Assembly (NCBI RefSeq): GCF_001661595.2
Contig: NZ_LYPF02000002.1
Coordinates: forward strand, 124,001-188,000
Source: Crocinitomix algicola
Lineage (GTDB): Bacteria > Bacteroidota > Bacteroidia > Flavobacteriales_D > Crocinitomicaceae
Reading direction: 5' to 3'
DNA: 64,000 bases
Under the pieces are notes generated by a model. It did no database searches. It worked only from the letters and a program-made list of their open reading frames with translations, and had not been told where the DNA came from. Both the position numbers and the translations under genes were made by a program. Each line of letters begins with the position of its first letter. The stretch's first letter is position 1. Below are positions 14,829-21,667 of the stretch, in pieces.

Positions 14829-14947
14829 GAAATTCGACTCACCACTTACCACGTTTTACGAACATTCATCCTATTTTTTTTAAGAAGAATTAAAAAGCAC
14901 TTATTTTAGCATTTGAGCAATTTAGCTACACGTAAATGTTTGTCACT

Positions 14948-17900
14948 ATGAAGAAAATTAAATTAATTACCCTCAGTTTGTTAATTTCTACAATTGGATT
15001 CACACAATCCGATAAAAAGAAAAATGAAGAAACAAATCAAGTCAATTCAGGTTTGGTTGCAGGATTGAAATTCAGAAATATTGGACCTGCATTAACTGCG
15101 GGTAGAATTTCAGATTTAGCAGTTAACCCGAACAATTCAAATGAGTATTATTTGGCCATTGCCTCTGGAGGTGTTTTTAAAACTCAAAATCATGGTGTCA
15201 CATTTGAACCTATTTTTGACAATGAAAACGCTTATTCAATTGGGTGCATAACAATCGATCCTAATCATACTTCAACAATTTGGGTTGGCACAGGGGAAAA
15301 TAATAACCAAAGATCAGTTGCATACGGTGATGGTGTATATAAATCAACAGATGGTGGCAAATCATGGAAAAACATGGGGTTGAAAAACTCCGAGCACATT
15401 TCGAAAATTATAGTGGATCCCAGAAACTCGGATGTTGTCTATGTTGCAGCATACGGACCTCTTTGGTCTTCAGGTGGAGAACGAGGAATCTATAAGTCGA
15501 TAGATGGTGGAGAATCCTGGGAGCGAGTTCATTTTATTTCAGAAAATTCGGGTAGTGCTGATTTAGTAATGGATCCTTCCAATCCTGATGTATTATACGA
15601 AGCGGTTCATCAGAGAAGAAGGCATGTATTTACTTATGTAGGGGGAGGAAAAGAAAGCGCAATTTATAAATCTGTAAATGGCGGAAAAACGTGGACCGAA
15701 CTAAAAAGTGGCTTGCCAACAGGTAAAATGGGAAGGGTAGGCTTAGCTATTTCACCTGCAGATCCAAATTATGTTTATGCCATCATAGAAGCGGAAGATG
15801 ATAATGGAGGATTTTACCGCTCAATTGATAAAGGAGCAAGCTGGCAGAAAAGATCAAATCACAAGACAAGTGGGAATTACTACCAAGAAATTATTTGTGA
15901 TCCAATTGATAAAAATAAAGTTTTTAGCATGGATACGTGGCTACATCACACCGAGGATGGTGGTAAAAGTTTTATTGCAACTGGAGAAAAAGGCAAACAT
16001 GTAGATAATCATTGTATTTGGGTGAACCCAGAAAATACGAACCATTGGCTCGTTGGTTGTGACGGTGGTTTATATGAAACATACGATCATGCTGAAAATT
16101 GGCATTATAAACCAAATCTTCCCATTACACAATTTTATAAAGTGACTGTAGATAATGACGAGCCTTTTTATAATGTTTATGGTGGAACACAAGACAATAA
16201 TTCTTTAGGAGGTCCTTCTCGAACAATTAATAATGCAGGAATTTTAAATTCTGATTGGTACATTACGAATGGTGGAGATGGCTTTGAATCGCAAGTGGAC
16301 CCTGAAGACCCAAATATTGTGTATGCACAAGCGCAATATGGCTGGTTGGTGAGATATGATCGTAAAAGTGGGGAAAAAATCGGAATTCAACCTATGCCAA
16401 GTAAAGGAGAAGATGCTTATCGTTGGAATTGGGATGCCCCGCTTGTGATTTCAAACCATGACCACAAAACCTTGTATTTTGCGGCAAACAAAGTCTTTAA
16501 AAGCACCGATAGAGGTAATTCATGGGAAACAATTTCACCTGATTTAACTCGTCAAATTGACCGGAATCAGTTGAAAGTTATGGGTGAAATTCAATCGCCT
16601 GATGTCGTAATGAAGAATAAGTCTACGACAATTTATGGGAATATTGTGGCGTTGGATGAATCACCGCTTGAAAAGGATGTGCTATACGTAGGTACAGATG
16701 ATGGGTTGATTCACGTGTCAAAAAATCGGGGAGAAACATGGGATAAACACGAGAATTTTCCAGGGATTCCAAAGATGACCTATGTGAATATGCTCGTGGC
16801 ATCGCAGCATAAGAAAGGAACTTTGTTTGCGGCTTTCAATAATCATAAAAATGGTGATTTTAAACCATATATACTGCGAAGTAAAGATTATGGAAAGTCA
16901 TGGGAAAATATAGCAGGAAATCTTCCGGAAAGAGGTTCCGTTTATGCGCTTGCTGAAGATCATAAAAATGAAAATCTATTATTTGCCGGAACGGAGTTTG
17001 GTTTATTTTTTACAGTTGATGGAGGAATAAATTGGGTGCAGTTAAAGGCTGGGATACCAACTATTGCCATTCGTGATATTGCCATTCAAAAACGTGAAAA
17101 CGACCTAGTATTGGCTTCTTTTGGGCGAGGCTTTTATGTGTTGGATGACTATTCGGCGTTGAGAGAATTAAGTGAGGATTTAATGGAGAAAGAGGCTTAT
17201 GTTTTTCCGATTCGTAAGGCTCTTTTATATGTCGAGTCGAATCCACTAGGATTAAAGGGTACAGGTTCTCAAGGTGCATCAATGTATGCCGCTCCTAACC
17301 CTGAATTTGGTGCAATGTTCACATATTATTTAGATGAAAGTCCAAAGTCGCCTAAATCTCAACGCAAAGAAATGGAGAATAAAGCGAAGGAAGAGGGGCG
17401 AGAGATTGATTACCCGACTTATAATGAATTTGTGGCGGAAGATAATTACGAAGATCCTTATTTATTATTTCTAGTACGTGACGCACAGGGAAATGAAGTT
17501 CGAAAAATAAAAACTAATGCAAGCAAAGGAATAAATCGTGTGAACTGGAACTTAAGATACCCAACAACTACTCCAATTCAGTTAAATAAAGGTGCGGTTG
17601 GCCGTTATAGTTTGCCTGACGAGGGACCATTAGTGGTTCCAGGAAAGTATAATGTGTCGATGTATTTGAGCGAGAACGGTATTTTTAAAAAACTAACGGA
17701 GGCTGTTGAGTTTGAAGTTGAAGCATTAGAGAACTCATCTTTATCCCGACAATCAGAGGATATTTTGGCCTTTAAGACTGAACTTGCAGAATTAAGAAGA
17801 AGGTTGAGAGGGACAATTAGTCAGTATGCAGAATTGAATGATCGATTAAAACATATGGCAGCGGCCATTCAAGAATATCCTAATGCTGATCTAGACTGGA

Positions 17901-18220
17901 TGAAAGAGGTTAAAGCTTTGGCAAGTCTTTTACATGATACACGAATTGCTATTTGGGGAGATTTTCACAAGTCGCAACGAGATATTGAAACTTTACCAGG
18001 AGCCGCAGGTCGAATTGAAACCATTATCTACCAATCGTGGTATTCAACTTCAAATGTAACAACTACTCAAAAAGATCAATATGCAATCGCTAAAGTAGAA
18101 TATGCTCAAATTAGAAAGTCTATTGATGAGGTGTTAATGCGCGTAACCGAAATGGAAAAGAAAATGAACCTTAAAGGTGTTCCTTATACCCCAAGTAGAC
18201 CGAATTGGAAGATTGATTAA
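14948..18220 (+). CDS. Secreted VPS10/BNR-repeat propeller protein (sialidase/glycosyl hydrolase-like)
   Basis: About 1090 aa. I take the start at 14948 because it opens a standard signal peptide (MKKIKLITLSLLISTIGFTQ); an in-frame ATG at 14936 adds four residues. The first ~750 residues contain at least eight Asp-box/BNR units of the form SxDGGxSW, for example KSTDGGKSW, KSIDGGESW, KSVNGGKTW and KSTDRGNSW. These predict one or two large beta-propellers of the VPS10/sortilin or xyloglucanase type. The C-terminal ~340 residues are a separate domain ending in a helical, charged segment. Databases often call such proteins glycosyl hydrolases, but the Asp box is structural and does not prove activity. 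It ends tail-to-tail with the WbqC gene on a shared TTAA. Confidence 0.85.
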   Translation: MKKIKLITLSLLISTIGFTQSDKKKNEETNQVNSGLVAGLKFRNIGPALTAGRISDLAVNPNNSNEYYLAIASGGVFKTQNHGVTFEPIFDNENAYSIGCITIDPNHTSTIWVGTGENNNQRSVAYGDGVYKSTDGGKSWKNMGLKNSEHISKIIVDPRNSDVVYVAAYGPLWSSGGERGIYKSIDGGESWERVHFISENSGSADLVMDPSNPDVLYEAVHQRRRHVFTYVGGGKESAIYKSVNGGKTWTELKSGLPTGKMGRVGLAISPADPNYVYAIIEAEDDNGGFYRSIDKGASWQKRSNHKTSGNYYQEIICDPIDKNKVFSMDTWLHHTEDGGKSFIATGEKGKHVDNHCIWVNPENTNHWLVGCDGGLYETYDHAENWHYKPNLPITQFYKVTVDNDEPFYNVYGGTQDNNSLGGPSRTINNAGILNSDWYITNGGDGFESQVDPEDPNIVYAQAQYGWLVRYDRKSGEKIGIQPMPSKGEDAYRWNWDAPLVISNHDHKTLYFAANKVFKSTDRGNSWETISPDLTRQIDRNQLKVMGEIQSPDVVMKNKSTTIYGNIVALDESPLEKDVLYVGTDDGLIHVSKNRGETWDKHENFPGIPKMTYVNMLVASQHKKGTLFAAFNNHKNGDFKPYILRSKDYGKSWENIAGNLPERGSVYALAEDHKNENLLFAGTEFGLFFTVDGGINWVQLKAGIPTIAIRDIAIQKRENDLVLASFGRGFYVLDDYSALRELSEDLMEKEAYVFPIRKALLYVESNPLGLKGTGSQGASMYAAPNPEFGAMFTYYLDESPKSPKSQRKEMENKAKEEGREIDYPTYNEFVAEDNYEDPYLLFLVRDAQGNEVRKIKTNASKGINRVNWNLRYPTTTPIQLNKGAVGRYSLPDEGPLVVPGKYNVSMYLSENGIFKKLTEAVEFEVEALENSSLSRQSEDILAFKTELAELRRRLRGTISQYAELNDRLKHMAAAIQEYPNADLDWMKEVKALASLLHDTRIAIWGDFHKSQRDIETLPGAAGRIETIIYQSWYSTSNVTTTQKDQYAIAKVEYAQIRKSIDEVLMRVTEMEKKMNLKGVPYTPSRPNWKID

Positions 18221-19095
18221 AAAAGCTTGCCTTGGTTAAACAGTAAGTCAAGACAAGATAAATTTGTTTCAAAGTCCTCTATTGCCCCAAATACCTGGTG
18301 GTAAGGAGGACTTTGGTGATTTAGGCGTTCTTTAGGAGATAATAACTGCTTAAAAGTAGAAGGGCTTTTATCCGTTTCTCCTCCTTTTACAATAAGAATT
18401 TTAATCCCGAGTTGAGTGCATATAAACGAAGTAAGCGCAATGTTTAAATCAATTAAATACTTATGGTTTTGCTTAATAATATTAAACAGTTCCTCATAAT
18501 AGTGTTCGAAATACGGAGCATTTCGATAGGCACTCTCAATTGCTTTAAGATGATCCTTTTGCCAATCTTCCGTATAGTTGATAAGTACATCTTTAACTAA
18601 AGTGTTTTTACCAAAGGGTCGAGTGACAGGAACGGATAAGTTTAAAAGTCCATTTGCTGAAAGAATCACACAACGATTGCGTAAGGTTTGTTTTTCATAA
18701 CGATCCTCTATATCGATGATTAGCTTTTCCGAGCCTAAAATATGGTGGAGATAAGCTTGGTTAAATAAATAGCTGGTGGGAGCAACTATTTCCTTTAAAT
18801 CTTTCTTTACAAACTGGTTTGCATTAATTGCTAAAGGGGTTGTTTCACGAATTTCTTCGCATCGATTTAATAGTTCTTCTTGACCTAATACCTCAAGCTC
18901 AGATTTTAATGCTATAGCCGCTTCGATATTCTGAAAAGTTTGCTTAAAAATCAATTCAAAATCAGAACAATGCTTTAAACAATTGCGTTCAACTTGGGTA
19001 TTCTTGTAAAACCTAAGACGTTCTTCTAGGTTTTTGGTTATGCCAAAATGATAATCATTCGAAGATAATCGAAGGACAAAGACGTGAAACATCAT
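18217..19095 (-). CDS. WbqC-family protein with an N-terminal GIY-YIG-like domain
   Basis: 292 aa in two parts. Residues ~1-85 look like a GIY-YIG domain: FHVFVLRLSS, then YHFGITKNLEERL and a helix AAIALKSELEVLG. The arrangement of strands, the Arg in ERL and the final helix fit, but the GIY and YIG tyrosines are replaced (HVF, HFG), so nuclease activity is doubtful. Residues ~105-240 are a WbqC-like domain (YLFNQAYLHHILGSEK, NRCVILSANGLLNLSVPV, DHLKAIESAYRNAPYFEHYY), a family associated with surface polysaccharide loci. The gene lies 3 bp after lepB in the operon dapB-lepB-wbqC. The combination in one reading frame with no stop or ATG at the junction supports a true fusion. Confidence 0.82.
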   Translation of the reverse strand: MMFHVFVLRLSSNDYHFGITKNLEERLRFYKNTQVERNCLKHCSDFELIFKQTFQNIEAAIALKSELEVLGQEELLNRCEEIRETTPLAINANQFVKKDLKEIVAPTSYLFNQAYLHHILGSEKLIIDIEDRYEKQTLRNRCVILSANGLLNLSVPVTRPFGKNTLVKDVLINYTEDWQKDHLKAIESAYRNAPYFEHYYEELFNIIKQNHKYLIDLNIALTSFICTQLGIKILIVKGGETDKSPSTFKQLLSPKERLNHQSPPYHQVFGAIEDFETNLSCLDLLFNQGKLF

Positions 19096-19098
19096 CTA

Positions 19099-20946
19099 TT
19101 ACTCGATTCCTTTGAATATTCTATTCCATCTCACATCACCACCAAACATTCCTTTAGGACCAGAGGACATCCAAATAAATGCAGCCCGACCAACAATATG
19201 ATCTTCAGGAACGAATCCCCAAAATCTTGAATCTGCTGAGTTGTTTCTGTTATCTCCCATTAACCAATAATAATCCATTTCAATTGTGTAGGAGTCGACT
19301 TTTTTACCGTCTATGAATATGCCTTCATCCGTTTCTTGTAAGGTGTGCTTCTCATAAGCGGTTATTATTCGTCTGTAGATTGGTAACGTTTTGTGATTCA
19401 AGGCAACCTCCATACCTTTGTAAGGAATTTCAAGTGGTCCAAAGTTATCTTCAGTCCAATCGTATTGCACATCATTTGGGAAAATTGGTAAATATCCCTG
19501 AGGGTACCCTTGTTCGAGTTTCTTACGATTATAACCTCTTTCCTTAATAAATGGCTTTATTTGTGGGAATTTTGGTAAAACTTCTTCGAGCTTTTTCTTA
19601 GATAACGGAATGGTAACAAAGCCCGAATCATCTGCGCCTAATTCATTTAGTCCAACATCAAAATGTTCTTTAAAATAACTTGCTTGACCTTGAGTCCAAG
19701 TCCAATTTGACGTTCTTCTACTCACAAAAGCAGGGTGTAAATAACCTGTAAAAGAATACTTATACTGCATATTTTCAGGTTGATGAGCTAGCTGACCGTT
19801 CAGGTAAAGTTCTTTATCTTTAATTTCTATCACATCACCAGGTATGGCGACACAACGTTTGATATAATTTTCTCGTTTATCAACTGGACGATCTAAAACA
19901 CCATGTATGATGGTATAGCCTCTAGCTTCATCTTCAGGGGCTGGTAAGGCCGAATAAACTTTGCCGTTTTCAAAATTTATCCGCGCTCGTTTTTTATAAT
20001 CTTCTATATTTTCCTCAAAATAGGCTAAGCTTTTTCCATCCTTTTTAAAAATGTAATACGCTTCATCTCGTAAAATTTGCTCATAAGTATGTCCAACCAA
20101 ACCATATGGCATCCTAGGATCGTTTAACGCCGTATCACCAGCAGGAAAATTAAATACGGTAACATCGTTTCTTTCAACAAATCTAAATCCAGGAACTCGA
20201 GTGTAAGGTATGGTCTGAATCTCGCTGTAAGACTTGACATTTAAATAAGGAAAACTATTGTGAAATACAGGGAACGAAAAGGGAGTCATCGGAACTCGAG
20301 GTCCATAAGTCACCTTTTCAACGAACAAAAAGTCTCCAACCATTAAAGTCTTTTCCATTGAGCCAGTAGGAATGGTGTACGGTTCAAATACATATGTTCT
20401 AATCGCACTAGCAGCAATTAACGCAAAAAGAAAGGCATCTCCCCATTCTTTAAAAATTGATTTTTTACCAGGCTTTCGTTTAACGCCCAATAATGACATT
20501 GGATACACAATAGCATGACCAACTACAGGCAAAGCAAAAAATAGAGCTACATGATCACTCGGCGTTCGGGCATTTACTTGCTTAACAATGTCCCAGTTTG
20601 TTGGTGGAACTGGTTGGTATTTTTCCGTGTCCATTGCAACTCTCCAAAAAACAGGAAAAGGAAATAAAATACCAAGTATTGTTTCTTTGACACCGAATTC
20701 ACCAAATTTTCGAATGAGCGTGATATTAATGCAGGCCCACATATAAATCTGAATACCAGGCATCAACAAGAAAATTGCCCAATACCAGGGTTGCTTACAA
20801 GCTCTAAGTACAACAAAATAATTGTAAAAAGGGATGAACGCAGCCCATGCAGGTTTGTCAATTCGCGGCAAGATTTTATGCCATAACCCAATAATTGGAG
20901 TCAAAATAATGATTAAATAGCCAATTATCAATCCTAAATATTCCAT
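19099..20946 (-). CDS. lepB: Signal peptidase I, extended form
   Basis: Cleaves signal peptides from exported proteins at the outer face of the inner membrane. The catalytic Ser196 is in PTGSMEKTLMVGD and the general base Lys363 in YIKRCVAIPGD; the late box MGDNRNNSADSRFWG is intact. At 615 aa it is nearly twice the length of Escherichia coli LepB. The extra part includes three or four N-terminal membrane helices (residues ~1-100), a DUF5684-like region, and a long insert between the Ser and Lys boxes and after the Lys box. Such long forms are usual in Bacteroidota. It begins one base after the dapB stop and ends 3 bp before the WbqC gene, so the three are one operon. Confidence 0.95.
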   Translation of the reverse strand: MEYLGLIIGYLIIILTPIIGLWHKILPRIDKPAWAAFIPFYNYFVVLRACKQPWYWAIFLLMPGIQIYMWACINITLIRKFGEFGVKETILGILFPFPVFWRVAMDTEKYQPVPPTNWDIVKQVNARTPSDHVALFFALPVVGHAIVYPMSLLGVKRKPGKKSIFKEWGDAFLFALIAASAIRTYVFEPYTIPTGSMEKTLMVGDFLFVEKVTYGPRVPMTPFSFPVFHNSFPYLNVKSYSEIQTIPYTRVPGFRFVERNDVTVFNFPAGDTALNDPRMPYGLVGHTYEQILRDEAYYIFKKDGKSLAYFEENIEDYKKRARINFENGKVYSALPAPEDEARGYTIIHGVLDRPVDKRENYIKRCVAIPGDVIEIKDKELYLNGQLAHQPENMQYKYSFTGYLHPAFVSRRTSNWTWTQGQASYFKEHFDVGLNELGADDSGFVTIPLSKKKLEEVLPKFPQIKPFIKERGYNRKKLEQGYPQGYLPIFPNDVQYDWTEDNFGPLEIPYKGMEVALNHKTLPIYRRIITAYEKHTLQETDEGIFIDGKKVDSYTIEMDYYWLMGDNRNNSADSRFWGFVPEDHIVGRAAFIWMSSGPKGMFGGDVRWNRIFKGIE

Positions 20947-20947
20947 A

Positions 20948-21667
20948 TTAAAATTTTAAAACGTCTTGCATCGTATAAATACCAGACTTATTTTTCATCC
21001 ATTCAGCTGCGATAACGCTACCTTGAGCAAAACCTTTTCTGCTATGGGCTGTATGTTTTATTTCTATTGTGTCAATTTCAGAACTATATGTCACTTCATG
21101 CGTTCCAGGAACATTGGGTAAACGTTCAGAAGCTAGTGAAAGTGTCTTTTTGTTTTCAATTTTGTCTTGTTTTACATTTTGCCAATCAGTATAGGTCTTA
21201 TGATTCTCAATGATTTGCTCGGCTATAGTAATCCCTGTTCCGCTTGGAGCATCTAATTTCTCGGTATGATGTATTTCCAGAACGCTGGCTTCATATTCTG
21301 ATAAACCATTCATGATTTTGGCTAAATGGGCATTTAAAGCAAAAAAAGCATTCACCCCAACACTGAAGTTCGTGGCATGCAATAATCCGCCGTTTTTCGA
21401 ATTACAATATTCAGAAACAGCTTTAAAATTGTCGTACCACCCTGTGGTTCCTACAATTATCGGAATCCCTAAGTCAATTGCAAAATGAATATTTTCTAGT
21501 GCCGAAGAAGGTTTGGAAAACTCAATAATTACATCAGTTTCACTATAATCAAAGGTTTCTTTTGGTGCTTTGCTATTAACTTTTGCAGTTATTTTATGTC
21601 CGCGTGCTATGGCAATAGATTCAATTTCTTTTCCCATTTTACCGTAACCAAAAATTGCAATATTCAT
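20948..21667 (-). CDS. dapB: 4-hydroxy-tetrahydrodipicolinate reductase
   Basis: Reduces hydroxy-tetrahydrodipicolinate with NAD(P)H in the lysine and diaminopimelate pathway, feeding peptidoglycan synthesis. The nucleotide-binding loop FGYGKMGKEI is at residues 6-15 and the catalytic box EIHHTEKLDAPSGTG at 131-145 (His133/His134, Lys137). At 239 aa it has the usual length. It is the first gene of the operon dapB-lepB-wbqC. Upstream on the minus strand, TACTTTCG (21689-21682) is one base from the TAnnTTTG consensus and lies 14 bp from the ATG, a plausible promoter. Confidence 0.96.
   Translation of the reverse strand: MNIAIFGYGKMGKEIESIAIARGHKITAKVNSKAPKETFDYSETDVIIEFSKPSSALENIHFAIDLGIPIIVGTTGWYDNFKAVSEYCNSKNGGLLHATNFSVGVNAFFALNAHLAKIMNGLSEYEASVLEIHHTEKLDAPSGTGITIAEQIIENHKTYTDWQNVKQDKIENKKTLSLASERLPNVPGTHEVTYSSEIDTIEIKHTAHSRKGFAQGSVIAAEWMKNKSGIYTMQDVLKF

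Follow-up and report, generated by a model that had tools for sequence, protein, structure and literature searches.

UPF0213/YhbQ-like proteins (1zg2, 1ywl) are standalone GIY-YIG proteins that mostly read Tyr-Tyr-Arg-His-Glu at the five catalytic positions and have basic C-terminal helices. The cost of altering these positions is known from human ANKLE1, in which Y453F and E551A leave no detectable cutting (>50,000-fold loss), while Y486F and H498A reduce cutting 3,500-fold and 150-fold, respectively (PMC10287932). The restriction enzyme R.Hpy188I, also of the GIY-YIG family, has Lys at the YIG position (PMC2630997), and a superfamily-wide survey cautions that GIY-YIG fusions may in many cases be incidental (PMC1564403). 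We found no relevant paper on the function of WbqC and none that joins WbqC with GIY-YIG.

The gene described here lies in a 64,000-nucleotide stretch of the Crocinitomix algicola genome (the window) and encodes a GIY-YIG domain followed by a linker and a WbqC domain (Table 1). The N-terminal domain resembles the UPF0213/YhbQ-like proteins, its best match by both sequence and structure, in its fold and length, in the order of its strands and helices, and in how the catalytic positions are spaced, but it reads Phe-His-Arg-Tyr-Lys, has acidic helices, and is attached to WbqC. The C-terminal part resembles the short lepB-linked WbqC proteins of Bacteroidota in sequence, in its place behind dapB-lepB, and in its length of about 190 residues. 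Among the matches listed, these unfused relatives (about 190–260 aa) start at the WbqC domain, whereas the window protein has the added N-terminus. The combination of GIY-YIG and WbqC is a new domain architecture, a modest evolutionary curiosity rather than a new system.

Table 1. Features of the fused gene and its neighbors, in window coordinates
Feature	Position	Strand	Basis
Whole gene, GIY-YIG domain fused to WbqC, 292 aa, ATG start	18217..19095	-	ORF; same frame in five congeners
GIY-YIG fold domain, residues 1-84	18844..19095	-	Pfam, UPF0213 profile match, AlphaFold2 + Foldseek, alignment to standalones
Linker, residues about 85-101, predicted disordered	18793..18843	-	pLDDT; weakest conservation among the three regions
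WbqC domain, residues 102-292	18220..18792	-	Pfam PF08889 E=6.4e-32; hhalign 99.9%
Presumed lepB (signal peptidase I), directly upstream of the fused gene	19099..20946	-	ORF + gene order
dapB, gene 1 of 3 in presumed operon	20948..21667	-	ORF + conserved order
Convergent 1094-aa gene, labelled Vps10-like, conserved downstream neighbor	14936..18220	+	ORF; locus comparison

A GIY-YIG-like domain fused to WbqC had been proposed from the sequence in a preliminary description, and several lines of evidence bear this out. The Pfam GIY-YIG profile matches the whole window protein at 2.2e-4 (21.9 bits), just under the cut-off of 22.6 bits, and matches the first 92 residues alone above it (E=3e-5, 24.6 bits). 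In a whole-genome scan with PF01541, the fused protein likewise scores over the cut-off; an NCBIfam search with the window protein gave no match. A six-sequence profile of the fused homologues matches UPF0213 structures 1zg2 (E=1e-9) and 1ywl (1.8e-6). AlphaFold2 predicts a strand-strand-helix-strand-helix-helix arrangement for residues 3–85, with pLDDT of about 90 outside a loop that spans roughly residues 31–45, and pLDDT falls below 50 in the linker at residues 85–98. Foldseek places this N-terminal model closest to 1zg2 (E=4.1e-5, probability 1.00), then to 1ywl and Slx1, with UvrC lower; the eight best real hits are all GIY-YIG proteins. VIA structure comparison gives Z scores of 8.2 to 1ywl, 7.3 to I-TevI, and 6.7 to UvrC.

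Fold and sequence homology alike place the window domain in the GIY-YIG superfamily, whose fold is a three-stranded sheet flanked by helices, and the agreement of sequence and predicted structure indicates a true GIY-YIG fold of nuclease origin, not the unrelated fold that the preliminary description had named as the outcome to overturn its reading. The opposite view, that the N-terminus is not GIY-YIG and that the motif likeness arose by chance, could draw on the whole-protein Pfam score, which taken alone falls just below the cut-off. Set against the six-homologue profile, the Foldseek ranking, and the VIA scores, it is vanishingly improbable and in practice already refuted.

The WbqC domain scores 111.6 bits against a PF08889 cut-off of 21.3. 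As in other lepB-linked members, the match covers profile positions 9–136 and a C-terminal piece (186–213) rather than the full length; the lepB-linked form generally spans about 2–137 plus the end piece, while canonical copies of 240 aa span 1–216. Comparison by hhalign of canonical WbqC with the alignment of this group (99.9%) confirms, at the level of sequence profiles, that the two forms belong to one family. The domain limits first proposed need small corrections: GIY-YIG ends near residue 84 (about 85 had been given), and WbqC runs from about residue 102 to the C-terminus at 292 and does not end at 240.

A scan of genome contigs with the window protein alone returned no relatives; relatives were found with the six-sequence alignment. 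Nine Crocinitomix genomes were available. A WbqC gene is readable in six of them, and every one of these genes carries the GIY-YIG domain (6/6). Since this two-domain reading frame recurs in five genomes besides the window species, the fused gene is not an artefact of assembly or frame. WbqC was not found in the other three genomes: in G004 and G008 the contig breaks off within lepB, and G002 (84% complete) shows neither lepB nor a WbqC gene. Because the contigs end there or the genome is incomplete, absence in these congeners is not evidence of loss, and the idea that they lost the fused gene was set aside.

Outside the genus, all WbqC matches listed from a sample of 200 genomes of the family start at profile position 82 or beyond; this list is still informative because fused copies score highest and would stand at its top. 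In 140 genomes of the order, the listed best matches start at position 76 or beyond, one weak, stop-containing secondary match excepted. Among the listed best matches from 148 genomes of the phylum there is no fused WbqC outside Crocinitomix, and matches starting at positions 1–4 are GIY-YIG frames that do not run into WbqC, the window itself excepted. The survey of WbqC homologues for the same N-terminus, suggested in the preliminary description, therefore finds the fusion only in Crocinitomix among the matches listed from the genomes sampled.

The ORFs and their order confirm the dapB-lepB neighborhood reported earlier, where the gene we take to be lepB owes its name to the preliminary description and to knowledge of the family; its stop is separated from the fused gene by 3 bases. 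The fused loci and an unfused neighbor (L060) share the order dapB-lepB-wbqC with the convergent 1094-aa gene next in line; in several further Bacteroidota without the fusion, the order is dapB-lepB-wbqC or lepB-wbqC. This slot is thus the usual home of the short WbqC form, with or without an extra domain. The setting had been called odd for a nuclease-derived module, a view that does not hold, because unfused WbqC takes the same place in related Bacteroidota. The suggested tie to polysaccharides also fell away, as we found nothing linking the window WbqC copy to polysaccharide loci. A candidate GIY-YIG remnant in the 238-base lepB-wbqC gap of L060 was rejected, since six-frame reading shows none. 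The gap (L060 5769-6006, in the nearest unfused relative) contains only short imperfect repeats such as TTTTTCGTTTTTCGA.

In a tree of GIY-YIG domains, those from the fused proteins cluster together (87/89 support, 88% of bootstraps) near flavobacterial standalone proteins, with no exact donor singled out. The window branch is very long (end branch 2.5). The simplest account that we infer is one fusion in the ancestor of Crocinitomix. Against it, the tree of the WbqC domain (18 rows) does not clearly group the fused proteins as one clade: five fused rows fall together, C. catalasitica is unplaced, and a fused clade appears in 20% of bootstraps.

We read the five catalytic positions from an alignment with 29 standalone Bacteroidota GIY-YIG proteins, which have Tyr-Tyr-Arg-His-Glu, one degenerate group of three excepted. 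The window domain has Phe6, His16, Arg26, Tyr30, and Lys64 in their place. It lacks both tyrosines of an active GIY-YIG nuclease (Phe6, His16) as well as the metal-binding Glu and the assisting His (Lys64, Tyr30), and it keeps the conserved Arg in the helix that follows YIG, a residue that is invariant in 6/6 fused proteins. The congeners read Tyr-His-Arg-His-Glu (L056, L057, L059, and L061) or Tyr-His-Arg-His-Asp (L058). The change of the YIG Tyr to His is common to all six fused proteins, and His occupies this position in 0/29 standalones. The earlier statement that both tyrosines are missing applies to the window protein but is not a family trait, because five of the six fused proteins keep the GIY Tyr, together with Arg, His, and Glu/Asp.

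The Phe at the GIY position of the window is equivalent to the ANKLE1 Tyr-to-Phe change that alone abolishes cutting. Given the lost catalytic residues and the effects of the ANKLE1 mutations, we infer that the window domain should be dead, that is, catalytically broken by its residues. R.Hpy188I and the window domain both have a residue other than Tyr at the YIG position (PMC2630997); the former has Lys and is an active restriction enzyme, whereas the latter has His there and is missing the GIY Tyr, the His, and the Glu as well. Among the standalones, the degenerate group (L049, L052, and L053, all Crocinitomix) carries Phe at the position of the YIG Tyr and either Ala or Ser at that of the conserved Arg, so that active-site decay is seen a second time in this genus.

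For the closest pair of fused genes (L056/L057), dN/dS is about 0.13 in the GIY domain, 0.27 in the linker, and 0.04 in WbqC. The GIY domain is thus under purifying selection in these relatives, weaker than that on WbqC. The constraint on the window domain is not measurable because synonymous sites are saturated, as they are in the deeper pairs. Divergence is faster in the linker and the GIY domain than in WbqC (window and L056 share 30% identity in the domain and 53% in WbqC), and the linker is the least conserved of the three regions. Significantly faster evolution of the GIY domain in the window lineage was rejected, as Tajima-type relative-rate tests gave p values of 0.08–0.13, a trend only. 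The last two helices have a mean net charge of -1.5 in the fused proteins versus +4.1 in the 29 standalones, a difference whose p value of 1e-4 overstates independence, the rows being related. With the positive charge of these C-terminal helices gone, nucleic-acid binding by the fused domain looks unlikely. The preliminary description had passed from the loss of catalytic Tyr to a binding role. The catalytic part of that argument agrees with the residues, but the charge loss argues against binding of nucleic acid; the domain may instead bind protein or be passive.

On balance, we lean toward an account in which a standalone UPF0213-like GIY-YIG ORF joined the 5' end of wbqC, in frame and once, in the Crocinitomix ancestor, with the WbqC enzyme staying in its usual position behind lepB and probably still doing its normal work. 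The ancestor of the six would have exchanged the YIG Tyr for His, and further losses, those of the GIY Tyr, the His, and the metal-binding Glu, would have followed in the window species. The added domain would still fold and would no longer be a competent nuclease; most likely it persists as a folded cap at the N-terminus, non-catalytic and in contact with a partner protein or a second copy of WbqC. The extreme divergence of the window domain weighs against this account, as does the prospect that the five congeners might cut DNA or RNA, given that R.Hpy188I tolerates a changed YIG Tyr. Were the domain a working nuclease in those congeners, with His standing in for the YIG Tyr and WbqC localizing or gating it, their retention of 4/5 catalytic positions (one with Asp for Glu) would be explained. 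We regard this as improbable: none of the standalones has His there, the ANKLE1 Y486F change is costly, the positive charge of the C-terminal helices is lost, and such activity cannot hold for the window protein.

It is a more serious, if still somewhat doubtful, possibility that the domain is functionless in itself, having joined by chance and now fading, most of all in the window species, and is kept only because it must leave the translation and folding of WbqC behind lepB undisturbed. The stepwise loss of catalytic positions, the faster divergence of linker and domain, and the long window branch fit such a course, which stays alive because GIY-YIG fusions can be incidental (PMC1564403). 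The low dN/dS of the close pair and a fold intact in 6/6 fused proteins speak against it, and the faster evolution of the window lineage that it would favor is not significant. Our preferred account of a retained cap could be extended to recruitment of a dead GIY-YIG domain to regulate a conserved enzyme of Bacteroidota or to serve as its contact module, outside nucleic-acid metabolism, a step that we consider rather unlikely. If true, it would give the GIY-YIG superfamily a kind of role for which it is not known. The locus captures, on a small scale and with a date, the decay of a nuclease domain still under way after fusion, with 4/5 positions kept in the congeners and 1/5 in the window, and the fused gene is a handle on WbqC, a widespread protein of Bacteroidota.

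Some standalone GIY-YIG ORFs lie directly beside tRNA genes. Two are in the genome of the window species, next to tRNA-Asn (L001 1417-1840) and tRNA-Met (L002 1456-1850), and the L002 match starts 58 bases beyond the right end of the window. Elsewhere, a tRNA-Ser gene adjoins three tandem GIY-YIG ORFs (L064 1633-2639), and another ORF lies beside tmRNA (L044 929-1728). Since sixteen other standalone GIY-YIG loci of the phylum have no adjoining tRNA or tmRNA, the adjacency may be a trait of one subgroup; we found no paper on GIY-YIG ORFs in this position.

BshC is the bacillithiol cysteine ligase. In structure comparison, the predicted WbqC domain resembles BshC (4wbd; VIA Z 10.8 over 170 residues, rmsd 3.5, 9% identity), and the listing gave no clear match to a further solved fold for this part. 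Because profile-profile comparison of WbqC with BshC gives no sequence support, we take the likeness only as a lead on WbqC function. BshC itself (PF10079) is encoded in the genome of the window species (G000:C4:163609-164682) and in 55/60 genomes of the order, which is consistent with bacillithiol use.
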